DNA from: a virus
DNA length: 23,676 nucleotides
Direction: 5' to 3' (one strand)
Virus record (IMG/VR): IMGVR_UViG_3300049489_000413
Location: 1-23,676 of that record
The notes below the pieces were generated by a model. That model was not told where the DNA came from and searched no databases. It was given only the letters and a program-made list of their open reading frames with translations. The position numbers and the translations under genes are program-made. Positions 4,972 to 12,200 of the stretch are shown here, piece by piece; within the stretch, counting starts at the first letter, position 1; the number at the start of each line of letters is the position of its first letter.

Positions 4972-5561
4972 AGCGGGTCCGCTTCCGTGTCGAGCGTGGA
5001 CGAGACCGCGCTCGCGTGGACCTCCCACGAACCTGACCCGAACGACGCAAAGCCCGCGGACTCCTCGCTCTGGTAGAAGAACCGAAGCCCCGACGCGCGC
5101 GCGATCTTGAGCACGAGCGCGGCCACGCGGGCGCTAATGCAGTACCGGTCGTCCTGGTCCGGATCAGCGGGCGTGAACGTGGCCAAACTCTCCAGGCAGT
5201 CATCCGCGATCGCGCCCATAGGGGGCACGAACGTGCCCCGCAGGGACGAATCGATCGCGTACAGGTACACCCGCACGATCGCGCCCGTTTGATCGCACAC
5301 GAACTTGGCGACGTCGTTCGTGCCCATCCCGGCCTGCACGGCTTTGACCCAGTCGGCCGGCAAGGCGAACCCGCAGGACAGCCCAGTGCCGTCGTCGGCC
5401 TGGAACGTACACGTCACAAGCGCGTGTGCGTCTTCGTCGCGCGCTTGCGCGATCGCGATCGCGCTATCGAGCCGGCGCACGTAGATCGTTTCCGCCTTCG
5501 TGGCCAACAAGGCGGCCAGTTCGGCTTTCCCACAACTCAGAGCATTATCACGAAATTGCAC
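4968..5561 (-). CDS. Unknown protein in recombination operon, 197 aa
   Basis: No family is recognised. The protein looks like an alpha/beta fold with several strand-like stretches (HALVTCTFQADDG, AIVRVYLYAIDSS) and a C-terminal half containing ARVAALVLKIARASGLRFFY. It has no membrane segment, nucleotide-binding loop or zinc site. A TTG at 5573 extends the frame by four codons, but GTG 5561 has an ideal GGAGG five bases upstream and is preferred. Its stop overlaps the Mre11-like start as ATGA. Being coupled to the nuclease suggests it acts in the same DNA-processing pathway, possibly as a clamp or accessory factor, but this is inference from position only. Confidence 0.75.
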   Translation of the reverse strand: MQFRDNALSCGKAELAALLATKAETIYVRRLDSAIAIAQARDEDAHALVTCTFQADDGTGLSCGFALPADWVKAVQAGMGTNDVAKFVCDQTGAIVRVYLYAIDSSLRGTFVPPMGAIADDCLESLATFTPADPDQDDRYCISARVAALVLKIARASGLRFFYQSEESAGFASFGSGSWEVHASAVSSTLDTEADPL

Positions 5562-5562
5562 G

Positions 5563-5664
5563 TCATCCTCCAAGATTCACAATCAACCAAATCGCCAGGG
5601 CGCCGAATAGCGCCCAGCAGACCAGGTCCAGCAACACGATCGCGATACCCTTTAGGTCATCCAC
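5563..5664 (-). CDS. 33-aa single-span membrane peptide
   Basis: The frame starting at GTG 5664 encodes MDDLKGIAIVLLDL followed by CWALFGALAIWLIVNLGG. After an acidic N-terminus almost everything is one hydrophobic helix. The start overlaps the stop of the preceding gene, and a GAAAGG site lies about 9 bases upstream. The 3' end provides the GGAGG used by the next gene. A longer frame from 5787 overlaps the 73-aa gene almost fully and is less likely. The role is unknown; tiny membrane peptides in phage early operons often target host envelope functions. Confidence 0.55.
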   Translation of the reverse strand: MDDLKGIAIVLLDLVCWALFGALAIWLIVNLGG

Positions 5665-5878
5665 AGTGCTGAGCCTTTCGGGCACGGGCGAGTTGCCGAG
5701 CGTGCGGTGAACCTGCCGGTACCCACCTACTAAACCACTCCCGCTTGACGCTGTCGTACACGTGCGCGCGCACGAACCCGCGCTCACGCAGGAGTGTCGG
5801 CATCATGGGCAATCGCAACAGGAACGCGACTGCGCCGCGATACCGACGCGGAACCGACCTATGAGACGGGGCCTTCAT
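5657..5878 (-). CDS. Small basic protein after RecA, 73 aa
   Basis: The ATG at 5878 overlaps the recA stop (ATGA), which strongly supports the start. The protein is very basic (MKAPSHRSVPRRYRGAVAFLLRL..., many Arg, few acidic residues) and ends RQLARARKAQHCG. A short hydrophobic patch (AVAFLLRLPMMP) is present but too short for a confident membrane helix. No family is recognised. High charge and co-translation with RecA make a nucleic-acid-binding accessory role possible. Confidence 0.65.
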   Translation of the reverse strand: MKAPSHRSVPRRYRGAVAFLLRLPMMPTLLRERGFVRAHVYDSVKREWFSRWVPAGSPHARQLARARKAQHCG

Positions 5879-7731
5879 AGTGCGATCTCCTGCGCGATCT
5901 TGGCGAACAAGTCCGCGTTGTTCTCCAGCGCGGCCCTGGCTTGCGCGAGCCCGACGCCAATACGCTCATCTTTGTACGTGTACGTGTTTCCGGTTTTCTT
6001 GATCACTTCAGCCTCAATCGCAACGGTCAGGGTTTCCGACACGGTGTCGATACCTTTCCCCCAGATGATGCCGAACTCGGCCTCCTTGAAGGGCGGTGCC
6101 ATCTTGTTCTTCACCACCTTCACGCGGGTCTGATTCCCGATCGAACCCGTGGCGTCCTCGATCTTGCCGATGCGCCGAATATCGAGGCGACATGACGCGA
6201 AGAACTTGAGTGCGTTCCCGCCTGGGGTCGTTTCCGGGTTCCCAAATTGGATCCCTATCTTCATTCTGATCTGGTTCAGGAACAGGAGCGCGGTGCCGGT
6301 CCGGTTCGCAATAGCGGTCAGCTTCCTGCACGCCTGGCTCATCAGGCGAGCATGTTTGCCCATGTGCGAATCCCCCATGTCGCCGTCGAGTTCATCCTGC
6401 GGCACCAAAGCCGCAACGGAGTCGATCACGATCAAGTGGAGTTGTCCGGTTGAGCACAGCACCTCAATCTGGTCTAGTGCTTGCTCGGCCGAATCGGGTT
6501 GACTAAAAATCAACTCCGGCATGGGCACCCCAAGCGCGGCGGCGTAGCCAGGATCGAACGCGTGTTCGGCGTCGATGAAGGCGGCCTTGCCGCCGTTGCG
6601 GTACACGTTCGCGAGCGCGTGAATCGCCAGTGTGGTCTTTCCGCTGTTGTGTGTCACGAAATTCGCCGCAATATAGTTATTGAACGGCGATAGCATCTTG
6701 ACATCGAACACCTCGCGGACACCGACAGGTTCGATACTGCGAATGATGTCCTCGGTGGCGACAAACCTTAGGTTATTGTGTCGGTCGAGCGCGTGCATGC
6801 GTCCGTGATCTTCCGCAGACAGTACCACAAGGTTTTCCAACCTGTCGTCACCCTCGTCCTCGTTGAGGTGATGCACGTGGTCATCACGCGATAGGGTGCG
6901 AATATGCTCAGGCAATGCGTCCGGTGAATTTAGAAGTTCAACGTACTGTTGCAACGACACACCGTTCATGTGTGCCTCCACGACAGCACGCGCACGCAGG
7001 AGCCTGTGATAAACGTATTCGCGCCGTTCACCAGTTGTGCGATTCGATACAGCAGAAACGACCTTTGCGCCCGCTATAGGGTGCTGCCGCACGTACAGAT
7101 AACCACGGCGTGACGCAGCGCGCACTCCAGGTTCCGCAGTAAATGGCGTACTTGCATGTACCAGCACGACATCGCCCGGCGACAAGTCGCAGAGTTTGAC
7201 GTAGGTCGACCCGGTAAAAAATCGGTGATCCGCCGTGGCGATAATTGAATGCCCGCCTGCGGTGATCAATTTCCAGCATGGGCGAGAACCGACCCGTACA
7301 ACGTCCACAATCTCGTTATGGAATATGCGGTCATCCTCATTAATGGATGGAGCGGTAAATACCGTGTTGTCCGGTAAGCGCCGATCTTTCCCACGACTAG
7401 TGCCAGTAGCCGGCTGACGATTGAAGCGCTCCCATAGCCGACGAAGTGTGCCACCCTTGTGATTTACACGACGACCATCGGGGCGTCGCATAGCATATTG
7501 GATGTACGTGTCGCCGTCTAGGCAGGATTCCGGTCCGAAAACCTCGACGATGCGCCCGCGTGGGTATCCGCCGCATCCAATCGCGCGGTCGAGCAGGAGT
7601 GACCCGGTCGGGATCGCGCGCACGGGCGCGGTTGTCCTGGTCCCGAAGACGCCACACCCCTGCTTGCCCAGCAGGGTCAGGGCTTCCGCGAGCGTGGGGG
7701 CGGACTTGTCCTTCTCTTTATCTTTTGCCAT
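5875..7731 (-). CDS. recA: RecA recombinase precursor with intein, 618 aa
   Basis: RecA forms ATP-dependent filaments on single-stranded DNA and drives strand exchange. The precursor holds an intein at residues 70-362; after splicing the host protein is 325 aa, close to normal RecA length. The N-extein ends EVFGPES and the C-extein begins SGKTTLAIHA, so the Walker A loop GPESSGKT is formed only after splicing. Further RecA marks are DAEHAFDPGYAAALGV, Walker B LIVIDSVAALVP, the MAW-like LMSQACRKLT, LFLNQIRMKIG and the L2 loop GNPETTPGGNALKFFAS. The ATG at 7731 has no SD and follows a tRNA-like structured RNA directly. RecA lies between the SSB and the nuclease pair, an arrangement typical of a recombination cassette. 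Confidence 0.96.
   Translation of the reverse strand: MAKDKEKDKSAPTLAEALTLLGKQGCGVFGTRTTAPVRAIPTGSLLLDRAIGCGGYPRGRIVEVFGPESCLDGDTYIQYAMRRPDGRRVNHKGGTLRRLWERFNRQPATGTSRGKDRRLPDNTVFTAPSINEDDRIFHNEIVDVVRVGSRPCWKLITAGGHSIIATADHRFFTGSTYVKLCDLSPGDVVLVHASTPFTAEPGVRAASRRGYLYVRQHPIAGAKVVSAVSNRTTGERREYVYHRLLRARAVVEAHMNGVSLQQYVELLNSPDALPEHIRTLSRDDHVHHLNEDEGDDRLENLVVLSAEDHGRMHALDRHNNLRFVATEDIIRSIEPVGVREVFDVKMLSPFNNYIAANFVTHNSGKTTLAIHALANVYRNGGKAAFIDAEHAFDPGYAAALGVPMPELIFSQPDSAEQALDQIEVLCSTGQLHLIVIDSVAALVPQDELDGDMGDSHMGKHARLMSQACRKLTAIANRTGTALLFLNQIRMKIGIQFGNPETTPGGNALKFFASCRLDIRRIGKIEDATGSIGNQTRVKVVKNKMAPPFKEAEFGIIWGKGIDTVSETLTVAIEAEVIKKTGNTYTYKDERIGVGLAQARAALENNADLFAKIAQEIAL
6646..7524 (-). mobile_element. 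Intein with HNH homing endonuclease in the RecA P-loop
   Basis: The 293-residue intein starts with the catalytic Cys1 (CLDGDTYI), has block B GGHSIIATADH (intein residues 90-100), and ends with block F-G YIAANFVTHN (284-293), followed by Ser+1 of the C-extein. All residues for self-splicing are present. An HNH domain (intein residues 216-244: HVHHLNEDEG, then RLENLVVLSAEDHGRMH) makes it a full mobile element able to cut intein-less recA alleles. The DNA is visibly richer in A/T than the flanks, a sign of separate ancestry. The insertion lies between GPES and SGKT, the most conserved point of the ATP site. Confidence 0.93.
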
Positions 7732-7790
7732 TCGGGCCGCGGGCGGGTCTCGAACCCGCCACGTCGCCGTGCGTCCAGCACCGCGGCCGA
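7732..7790 (-). ncRNA. Compact tRNA-like three-helix RNA before recA
   Basis: Reading the minus strand, GGCCGCGG (7781-7788) pairs perfectly with CCGCGGCC (7735-7742) as an acceptor-like stem, extendable by TCGG/CCGA with one bulge. Directly inside its 3' arm is a textbook T-arm, GCGGG-TTCGAGA-CCCGC (7743-7759). Next to it CACG-GCGA-CGTG (7760-7771) forms a hairpin with a GNRA-type loop. Only nine unpaired bases remain, so there is no room for both a D-arm and an anticodon arm. The structure ends at the recA start codon, which has no SD. It could be a degenerate tRNA, a processing signal or a translational control element. Confidence 0.5.
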
Positions 7791-9377: not shown

Positions 9378-12008
9378 TCACAACTCCACGGACTTGAGTG
9401 ATCCCCACGCGGGGCCGGTCTTGCAATCTCCGACGAGCGGCACGCCCATACTGGGCCACGACTCCATTACGGATTTCGCCATCTTGGCGACCTTGAGGGT
9501 CTCGGTTTTGTGACACTCGATCAGCATCGAGTCATACACGGTCAAGATTAGCTTGGCCGGTAATCTTTCGCGAACGATTCTGGCCTGTACCTCGCACAGG
9601 CTCGCGTTCATGAACTCGGCGGCGGTTCCCTGGATTGGGGTGTTCCAACTGGAGCGCTCAGCCGTCCCGCGATCTGGTGATCGCTCATCCGAATCCGCCA
9701 CGTCGTACAGGGGGCGCCACCGGAACGCGTCGCCGTTCCACCAGGTTCGGCAGTAGCCGTTTCGGCGCGCTTCACGCAGGCGCTCTTGGAGCCAGGCACG
9801 CAGGACCTTGAAGTTCCCCAAGATCGCGTCGTGGATCGCCTGCGCTTGCTTGACCGGGATGTTGAGGTCCTCAGCCAACCCCGCGACCGTCTTGCCGTAC
9901 AGGGCCCCGAACACGACCGTCTTCGCGCGCGAGCGCAGCGGGTGATCGGCATCGATGTCCTCCGGCTTGAGCCCGAAGATGTGCGCGACCTGCTTCGCCG
10001 CAGTCAGGTGAAAGTCCACGCCGCGCTGGAACAGGTCCAACATGACGGGGTCGCCAGAGAGCATACAGGCGACACGCAATTCCTGCTGGCTGAAGTCCAG
10101 CTCGATCATGTCGCAGTCAGGCGGGACCGTGTAGACATCGCGGGCGAGTTTACCAGCCGCACTCTTGGGGCGCGGGATATTGAGCGCGTTCGGGTCTCGA
10201 CATGACGGCCGCCCTGTTTCGGTCCCGGAAACATTGTAGTGTGGGTGTACGCGCCCGTCGTCTTGGATGAACGCCAGCATGGCGTCCGCGTACTGAGAGC
10301 GGAACTTCTGCGCCTGCCGCCACGACTTGATGTGTGCGATCACGGGGTGCTTGATTCGGTCCAGCACGCTAGCGTCGAGGGCACGCTTCCCGGTCGCGGT
10401 CGGCTTTACGCCCTTCGGGTATGGGATCCCGAGCGTGTCGAACAGGAGAGCGCCTAACTCGTCCGTACTGTTCGGGTTGAACGTCCCCCACTCCCGCATG
10501 CCGTCCTCGGCGGCGGCGATTTGGGCGTCCGTGTGGGCCTGCAAGTCCGTGATGGCCTTGCGGCTAACCAGGATCCCGTTCTGCTCCATCACGGTGAAGG
10601 TGGCGGCCAGGTTGCACGCCATGTTGTTCCACACGGGCTGCATGTCGCCCGCCTCCGTGACCCAAGACGCTTCAAGGCTTTGACGCAGGATGTCGGCCGA
10701 CACGGTGTCGCGGGCGCAGTACGCCAACAGGGTCATCTCCGGAATGGCGCCGAAGCAATACTGCTCCGGCTCGCGCCCAGCAAGTACGCGCTTCAGCGCC
10801 GTATCGAATAGGGCCGGGTTGGTCCAGACCTCGCGCACGGGCGCCTTCATGGTCCGGCCGCCTAGCGTCAAACCGTTGCGTTCCGCATACCTGACGTGCG
10901 CGTTCAGTTCCGCCGTTGCGGCAGCCTTGTCCTCCTCGATCTGGGATTTACCGCCCCCCATCCCGATCCTGAACTGCTGAAGCGCCAGCGCGGCAAGGGT
11001 GTCGGGTTGCTGCACCTTGCGGACCAGTTCGGTGCAGAACTGCACGTTCTCGACCTGCCGCCCAAACTGCCCGTGAAACCAAACGCAGTCGTACTTGACC
11101 GACTGGTTGCTTTTCGCAATGTCGGCGTTGCAGAACAGATCCCGAATCGCGACCTGCCAGCGTGCCGTGTAGAAGTTCGTGAACACGTAGGCGTGTTTCG
11201 TCCCGTAGGGCGTAATCGCACACGCGAGCGTGGTCGCGTCTTCGTCGCACGCGCGCCCGAACGTCTCGAAGTCAAACGTCATCCCGCCCGCGCCCCGCAC
11301 GTCTTCGATCAGTCGTGCCAGCACGTCATCGGAATCGACACGCGTCCACCAGCCCGATTTCACGAGGTCGCGCGCGGCGTTGGGGAGTTGTGCGACCGGG
11401 GTATTCAACGCCCACGCGACATCACGCGCGAGAGAGGCCCGATGAAAACTATTCCGCGACGCGTGCCCAGGGTGGTCCAGGAGGATCGCGGGCACGTGCG
11501 AGCGATCGGGCATCTCGTAGTAGATCACGCCGCGCCGGACCGCCCCCATGTCGGCACCAGATCCCACGAAGGCCGTCATGGCGTCGGACCCGAACAGGAG
11601 GATCCGCTCCGGGCGCATCTCCTCGATCGTGTTGACGAGGTAGCCCGAACACGCCCGGATACACTTGCGCTTCTGGACCGTGCCGAGTGTGCGTTCACCG
11701 CTACACCGCATGGCGGCGTCGAACACGATCATGCCCGGCCATGGATCGACCATCGACCGCAGCACGCGCCCGTACTCTGATGTGAGTTGGCGCTTGCGCA
11801 GCACGTCTTGCGCGGTCGGGGCCCCGCACACGCACATGAGCGTCGGCGCATTCGCGGTTCTGGCCTGCCTGGCCTCCGCAGGCAAGCACGCGCGCTGACC
11901 CGGCTTCGCAAGTGCGCACAACCGACACTCAGGGTCGTCACCACGAGCATTCACGTTCGCGATGGCGAGTTCGGGTAATCCGTGGGGGTACAGGGGGAAT
12001 TTCTGCAT
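9378..12008 (-). CDS. polA: Family A DNA polymerase with N-terminal UDG-like domain, 876 aa
   Basis: This is the phage replicative polymerase. Residues about 25-205 resemble family 4/5 uracil-DNA glycosylases: C28xxC31, CGAPTAQD (61-68), C102 and C116 as candidate 4Fe-4S ligands, RILLFGSDA (135-143) and LDHPGHA. The 3'-5' exonuclease has D246/E248 (FDFETF), D307 (VKYD) and Y430/D434. Polymerase motifs: TETGRPS (596-602), motif A LDFSQQELR (D638), O-helix R692-K696-F700-Y704, and motif C VYDS (D826) in place of the usual VHDE. There is no 5'-3' exonuclease domain. ATG 12008 has AGGTGAG seven bases upstream. A longer frame to 12197 crosses the tRNA and is rejected. SPO1-group phages also carry a UDG-like domain at the polymerase N-terminus (recalled knowledge). 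Confidence 0.95.
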   Translation of the reverse strand: MQKFPLYPHGLPELAIANVNARGDDPECRLCALAKPGQRACLPAEARQARTANAPTLMCVCGAPTAQDVLRKRQLTSEYGRVLRSMVDPWPGMIVFDAAMRCSGERTLGTVQKRKCIRACSGYLVNTIEEMRPERILLFGSDAMTAFVGSGADMGAVRRGVIYYEMPDRSHVPAILLDHPGHASRNSFHRASLARDVAWALNTPVAQLPNAARDLVKSGWWTRVDSDDVLARLIEDVRGAGGMTFDFETFGRACDEDATTLACAITPYGTKHAYVFTNFYTARWQVAIRDLFCNADIAKSNQSVKYDCVWFHGQFGRQVENVQFCTELVRKVQQPDTLAALALQQFRIGMGGGKSQIEEDKAAATAELNAHVRYAERNGLTLGGRTMKAPVREVWTNPALFDTALKRVLAGREPEQYCFGAIPEMTLLAYCARDTVSADILRQSLEASWVTEAGDMQPVWNNMACNLAATFTVMEQNGILVSRKAITDLQAHTDAQIAAAEDGMREWGTFNPNSTDELGALLFDTLGIPYPKGVKPTATGKRALDASVLDRIKHPVIAHIKSWRQAQKFRSQYADAMLAFIQDDGRVHPHYNVSGTETGRPSCRDPNALNIPRPKSAAGKLARDVYTVPPDCDMIELDFSQQELRVACMLSGDPVMLDLFQRGVDFHLTAAKQVAHIFGLKPEDIDADHPLRSRAKTVVFGALYGKTVAGLAEDLNIPVKQAQAIHDAILGNFKVLRAWLQERLREARRNGYCRTWWNGDAFRWRPLYDVADSDERSPDRGTAERSSWNTPIQGTAAEFMNASLCEVQARIVRERLPAKLILTVYDSMLIECHKTETLKVAKMAKSVMESWPSMGVPLVGDCKTGPAWGSLKSVEL

Positions 12009-12105
12009 CTCAGACTCACCTAAAGGGCCGTCTCTCCGGCTGTCACGCCTTGGATTCGCTGACGCTGCGGTCCGCGTTTGGATACCAGGTAGGTCAACTC
12101 GACGG

Positions 12106-12174
12106 TGCCCCCACCGGGACTTGAACCCGGAAACCCGCATACAGGGTGCGGTGTCCGACCTGGACCGTGAGGGC
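12106..12174 (-). tRNA. tRNA-like gene, candidate anticodon CTG, atypical loop
   Basis: On the minus strand a full cloverleaf folds in 69 bases. Acceptor GCCCTCA (12168-12174) pairs with TGGGGGC (one G-U pair), and A73 is at 12106. The D-arm is GTCC-AGGTC-GGAC, the anticodon stem is CCGCA/TGCGG with loop CCCTGTA (12140-12146), the variable loop has 4 bases, and the T-arm is CCGGG-TTCAAGT-CCCGG. Positions 34-36 read CTG, which would decode the Gln codon CAG. However, position 33 is C instead of the near-universal U and position 37 is a pyrimidine. Positions 8-9 are CG and the D-loop is short. CCA is not encoded. It may be a divergent phage tRNA, a pseudogene or a tRNA mimic. Confidence 0.65.
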
Positions 12175-12178
12175 GAGC

Positions 12179-12200
12179 GCGGTGATGCGAACACCACCGC
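12179..12200 (-). terminator. Strong UUCG hairpin between the 359-aa gene and the tRNA
   Basis: On the minus strand GCGGTGGTG-TTCG-CATCACCGC forms nine pairs (one G-U) closed on a TTCG tetraloop. It begins seven bases after the stop of the 359-aa gene and ends four bases before the tRNA. There is no T-run, so it is more likely an mRNA-end stabiliser or tRNA-processing boundary than a classic intrinsic terminator. Confidence 0.55.

Follow-up and report, generated by a model that had tools for sequence, protein, structure and literature searches.

Our analysis confirmed that a class 1 intein with an HNH domain lies inside the Walker A motif of the RecA protein encoded by a viral DNA stretch of 23,676 nucleotides, the whole of which we call the window. 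Judged by comparison of intein sequences, it seems to belong to a lineage of class 1 HNH inteins whose members, with few exceptions, sit in the Walker A motif of ATPases of at least five kinds, and of which we found no description in the literature searched.

An HNH intein splits the P-loop of a viral RecA

The minus-strand open reading frame at positions 5875 to 7731 encodes 618 amino acids followed by a stop codon. Residues 1 to 69 and 363 to 618 of this precursor are RecA, and residues 70 to 362 form an insert of 293 residues. The RecA equivalog model TIGR02012 scored 403 bits against a cutoff of 325.3, PF00154 matched the exteins with an E value of 4.6e-104, and both exteins are intact. 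Once rejoined, they read GPESSGKT, as does the uninterrupted P-loop in most of 80 related viral RecA loci; some of these loci read GPESGGKT. The first-pass annotation had placed an HNH intein splitting the RecA Walker A at 6646 to 7524, and these boundaries proved exact (GPES/SGKT, the slash marking, here and below, the insertion site). The features are the following.

5875..7731, minus strand: recA precursor gene (RecA with intein), 618 aa; open reading frame, PF00154, TIGR02012
7525..7731, minus strand: N-extein, 69 aa, ending in GRIVEVFGPES; aligns to uninterrupted RecA
7525..7536, minus strand: first half of Walker A, GPES; comparison with uninterrupted RecA loci
6646..7524, minus strand: intein, 293 aa, CLDGD...FVTHN; Pfam Intein_splicing, AlphaFold2 model, Foldseek to solved inteins
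7495..7524, minus strand: splicing block A with Cys1 (CLDGDTYIQY); Cys1 in 66/66 Walker A members (see below)
7447..7464, minus strand: NHKGGT, signature of the RecA/UvsX/AAA+ subclade, between blocks A and B; alignments
7213..7254, minus strand: splicing block B (GGHSIIATADHRFF), T97 and H100; TxxH
6793..6906, minus strand: HNH endonuclease motif (DDHVHHLNEDEGDDRLENLVVLSAEDHGRMH), H219/N231/H240; HNH_3, PHROG HNH
6646..6717, minus strand: splicing blocks F and G (Asp274, His292-Asn293); Asp274 and Asn293 in 66/66 Walker A members
6634..6645, minus strand: second half of Walker A, SGKT, its Ser being the +1 splicing residue; uninterrupted RecA loci
5878..6645, minus strand: C-extein, 256 aa, remaining RecA core and C-terminal domain; PF00154, PF21096

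Cys1, block B, the HNH motif, the terminal VTHN and Ser+1, all named in the first-pass annotation, were thus recovered. A profile search for Hint and HNH domains, the failure of which it had named as a refutation, gave a Pfam Intein_splicing match just above cutoff (7e-9, 36.0 bits versus 35.8) and matches of the HNH part to PHROG HNH families (2e-7) and, below its cutoff, to Pfam HNH_3 (4e-4). H219, N231, and H240 are all present. With Cys1, the TxxH of block B (T97/H100), VTHN/S, and a Hint fold, the insert is a class 1 intein; class 3 inteins have no nucleophile at position 1, where Cys1 is found here. An AlphaFold2 model of the intein, built with 27 family sequences, reached a pLDDT of 91.6, and Foldseek matched it to solved inteins (6frg, 2imz, and 4o1r) with a probability of 1.00, the Ssp DnaB and Mtu RecA inteins ranking best and Npu DnaB also being matched. 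A model of the whole precursor was poor (pLDDT 71.6) and was left unused.

Elsewhere in the window, a tRNA-like hairpin element of 54 nucleotides lies immediately upstream of the recA start (7735-7788, minus strand). It scored far under cutoff with the tRNA-Sec model (E 0.094) and may be what remains of a tRNA or a structure resembling a terminator. A family A DNA polymerase is encoded at 9378-12197 (minus strand), and its N-terminal part weakly resembles uracil-DNA glycosylase (E 6.5e-4, below cutoff). A tRNA-Gln (CTG) at 12104-12174 (minus strand) overlaps the 5' end of this listed open reading frame, so the gene probably starts at an ATG near 12005.

Related inteins occupy Walker A in many phage ATPases

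The IMG/VR searches for relatives were seeded with intein sequence only (the insert, alignments, and a DNA pattern for NHKGGTI), and host genes were therefore not selected. The first search, with the window insert, returned five relatives; the alignments and the NHKGGTI pattern brought more. With a profile of 31 members, 83 full-length inteins, all distinct, were recognized in the loci retrieved, the P-loop clade having been sampled from viral contigs by short peptide patterns and its HMM trained on members. Including the window intein, 66 distinct full-length members are in Walker A of phage ATPases. The hosts comprise RecA, UvsX-like, AAA+, primase-helicase, SF1, SF2, and SNF2 proteins; Pfam named RecA, AAA+, ResIII with Helicase_C, PIF1/UvrD-type SF1, SNF2, and DEAD_2 with Helicase_C_2 hosts, and one host carries a zinc ribbon of the DnaG type. 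Closest to the window intein is L126 (53% identity), which interrupts the RecA of another phage at the same codon.

At a threshold of 140 bits, 58 of 59 members were found in Walker A. The site falls between residues 4 and 5 of GxxxxGK[ST] in 47 of them, as it does in the window intein at GPES/SGKT, between residues 2 and 3 in 10, and between residues 3 and 4 in one. The sole exception interrupts an apparent portal protein at GAS/SGETY, named from its sequence, with no Pfam hit. Lowering the threshold to 110 bits gave 66 of 70 in Walker A (55, 10, and one at the same three positions). All 66 have Ser, Cys, or Thr as their +1 residue. In the 11 shifted cases, a K, R, A, V, or G occupies position 5 of Walker A and could not act as the +1 nucleophile; the site lies instead at a nearby upstream Cys or Ser, as in LA/CGKGKT, AP/CGAGKS, and GPE/SGGKT. 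We infer that the P-loop sets the neighborhood of insertion and splicing chemistry sets the codon. Carriers use both TCN and AGY codons for the +1 Ser, so that no strict DNA target is visible; with no nucleotide signature past the amino acids, such a target was rejected.

Presence of the intein is sporadic, as it was absent from all 80 related viral RecA loci examined. Two phage contigs each harbor two members in different ATPases, one in RecA and an SF2 helicase (L097 and L116), the other in RecA and a DDQG/CGKT protein (L095 and L229). No nearly identical intein-free allele of the window phage was found, and homing was therefore not seen directly. Querying 50,697 records of isolated phages with five different members revealed no close relative. 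Likewise, no member of the lineage turned up when 84,980 bacterial and archaeal genomes were scanned twice with peptide patterns, the only hits being an intein in PolA and one in a terminase, the latter with an HNH open reading frame; an origin of the lineage in host genomes was discarded on these grounds.

Several of the loci deserve separate mention. L107:2885-5908 encodes a primase-helicase-like phage protein with a zinc ribbon and a family intein at GPPS/CGKS. In L062:2328-4376, the intein of a viral RecA is a different one and sits at SGK/T, the classic P-loop site, so that different inteins have invaded the P-loop of phage RecA at two positions. Three genes, encoding a UvsX-like protein, an SF2 helicase, and an apparent portal protein (L094:4806-7850, L165:3518-6307, and L166:1-4632), contain two inteins each, a family HNH intein and a second one; in L094 and L166 this second intein has a LAGLIDADG domain. 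The terminase intein at L147:3897-6089, from a Bacteroides genome, has an HNH open reading frame (5261-5941) inside the intein gene in another frame.

Intein phylogeny does not follow the host protein

In a tree of 31 inteins, the 20 members hosted by RecA, UvsX-like, and AAA+ proteins formed a clade with 100/100 support, in which the host types were mixed. Forcing the RecA-hosted inteins into one clade cost 81 log units (p 3e-6) and forcing the UvsX-hosted ones cost 88 (p 1e-5), and both constraints were rejected. Since a single clade of AAA+ hosts was not rejected by the AU test (p 0.17), there may have been few jumps from one fold family to another; RecA plus UvsX was not rejected either (p 0.12). 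RecA and UvsX-like proteins are homologous, which makes exchange between them easier than with AAA+. A minimum of one jump between the RecA/UvsX and AAA+ folds, and of one involving helicases in either direction, is needed.

In a tree of 82 inteins, obtained by a quick search without bootstrap and with an incidentally collected outgroup, the Walker label needed 2 changes versus 14.8 for shuffles, and keeping the 66 Walker rows together improved the likelihood by 21.6. Inteins at ThyX and other sites fell outside the Walker clade, the portal-protein intein being the exception. The window intein was placed within the Walker clade in both trees.

The HNH domain is conserved in relatives

H219/N231/H240 are intact in 60 of the 66 Walker A members and the HNH is reduced in six (L002, L098, and L236-L239); L002 has lost 25 amino acids within the HNH motif and keeps its splicing blocks. 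Such HNH-less forms are expected from a homing cycle. In three close pairs the HNH segment was more conserved than the whole intein (92 versus 77%, 76 versus 63%, and 71 versus 58% identity), and the HNH domains of L227 and L234, 92% identical, differ with a dN of 0.05 and a dS of 1.23. Judged by these comparisons, the HNH is under purifying selection in relatives of the window intein; for the window intein itself, synonymous sites were saturated against its nearest relatives in the dN/dS analysis. This conservation, within close pairs and across the family, fits a putative homing element specialized on P-loops.

The lower GC of the insert had been taken as a sign of later acquisition. The GC content is indeed lower (54.6% versus 64.2% for the window), but all 31 carriers have an intein of lower GC than its exteins, which means that overall GC by itself cannot date the acquisition and loses weight as proof of a recent event. 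Third codon positions give moderate support: GC3 is 0.57 in the window intein versus 0.77 in the exteins, the third largest gap among the 31, which suggests incomplete adjustment of the intein to the window genome.

A probable mobile intein specialized on Walker A

We consider it likely that the insert is a mobile class 1 HNH intein of a phage-borne lineage specialized on Walker A, for which we infer splicing, cleavage, homing, and target recognition as follows. The recA gene would be translated as an ATPase-dead precursor, from which the intein would be excised through an N-S shift at Cys1, transesterification to Ser+1, and cyclization of Asn293, restoring GPESSGKT. During co-infection, the HNH domain would nick or cut intein-free P-loop coding DNA, and repair would copy the intein in. 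We propose that the element is hard to lose, because alteration of the P-loop or imprecise deletion kills the enzyme, and that its relatives could reach RecA, UvsX-like, AAA+, SF1, SF2, and SNF2 proteins because these share the motif.

How the lineage came to favor this loop can be read in two ways given the lack of a strict DNA target, namely tolerant recognition of the P-loop or survivorship where loss is lethal. We tentatively entertain, at somewhat less than even chance, that the endonuclease recognizes degenerate P-loop coding DNA and so invades non-orthologous ATPases, the codon being that of the nearest Cys/Ser/Thr; homing would then act at the level of the motif rather than the allele. 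Shared survivorship appears rather unlikely to us: HNH inteins would land widely and persist only in P-loops with a +1 C/S/T, through selection against loss. Site codons that are unconserved past the amino acids, a site that follows the available nucleophile, and the persistence of related inteins elsewhere (ThyX, portal) all agree with it, but independent survivorship predicts that Walker A members scatter among other-site inteins, and they form one clade. That single clade favors targeting without proving it.

By analogy with the P. horikoshii RadA P-loop intein, which compromises the ATPase before splicing (PMC8529194), there is good reason to expect that the window precursor would be unable to bind ATP. 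The first-pass annotation went further and suggested that splicing acts as a switch for recombination-dependent replication. A regulatory role, in which slow or conditional splicing would time RecA activation in phage replication, finds precedents in the conditional splicing of P-loop inteins in P. horikoshii RadA (PMC5790916) and M. smegmatis DnaB (PMC6195587); moreover, the insert separates ATP-binding residues and HNH-less members persist. We nevertheless regard it as improbable, and the suggestion found no support: the same family occurs in many unrelated ATPases, including helicases and AAA+ proteins, and even in a portal protein, insertion is sporadic, neither a sensor feature nor a conserved extein partner came to light, and the HNH is kept by most members and, in close pairs, is better conserved than any other part of the intein. 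The many host proteins, the coexistence of HNH-less and HNH-bearing forms, and the conserved HNH point first to a selfish homing element. An intein that still splices with an inactive HNH and is inherited vertically has little probability in our judgment. The subthreshold HNH_3 score and the degenerate HNH forms in the family (L002-L004 and L098) would suit it; the complete H/N/H set in the window and the purifying selection in relatives do not, and the disagreement between intein and host groupings argues against purely vertical inheritance. Finally, although the window is an uncultured viral fragment, an assembly or annotation artifact is practically inconceivable and is refuted by independent contigs in which homologous inteins interrupt the same codon and the frames stay open.

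Relation to known inteins

The M. tuberculosis RecA intein (RecA-a type; NF007072) is likewise a class 1 intein in RecA, and its solved splicing domain was among the best structural matches. However, positions 68-252 of the NF007072 model align unbroken to window residues 360-544, through the P-loop, so the Mtu-type intein sits elsewhere and the two do not share a site. Its endonuclease is of the LAGLIDADG type, versus HNH in the window intein. The RadA P-loop inteins are inserted at GK/T, in contrast to the window intein between residues 4 and 5. Those of P. horikoshii and T. sibericus also interrupt the P-loop of a RecA/Rad51 recombinase and compromise the precursor ATPase (PMC5790916, PMC8529194), but they are mini-inteins without endonuclease.

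Class 3 inteins of TerL1-c/e and DnaB-b share common ancestry across different ATPases (PMC5050341). Like the window intein, the class 3 DnaB-b and mycobacteriophage TerL inteins lie in the P-loop or ATPase domain; their chemistry is that of class 3, DnaB-b lacks an endonuclease, and TerL1-c/e sit elsewhere in the ATPase domain, whereas the window lineage is class 1, carries HNH, and occupies one P-loop position across many families. The nearest relatives in isolated phages, the mycobacteriophage ThyX (TdS) HNH inteins, have the same architecture at about 25% identity, but are inserted in the ThyX RHR motif and fall outside the Walker clade. Among solved inteins, Ssp and Npu DnaB gave the best sequence and structure matches (best sequence E value, 3.5e-4), although they reside in another host protein and the solved chains lack HNH.

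P-loop inteins and HNH inteins are already known, and inteins favor P-loops, those of RecA and RadA included (PMC5874633). In the literature searched, the coverage of which was incomplete, we found no description of an HNH lineage that keeps to Walker A in different ATPase families. The clustering of inteins in P-loops has long called for an explanation, with regulation, difficulty of loss, and targeting as candidates, and one lineage in the same loop of many ATPase families represents a natural experiment on it. Class 1 inteins that naturally adjoin SGK, CGK, and TGK in very different folds may also help to make ATPases conditional.
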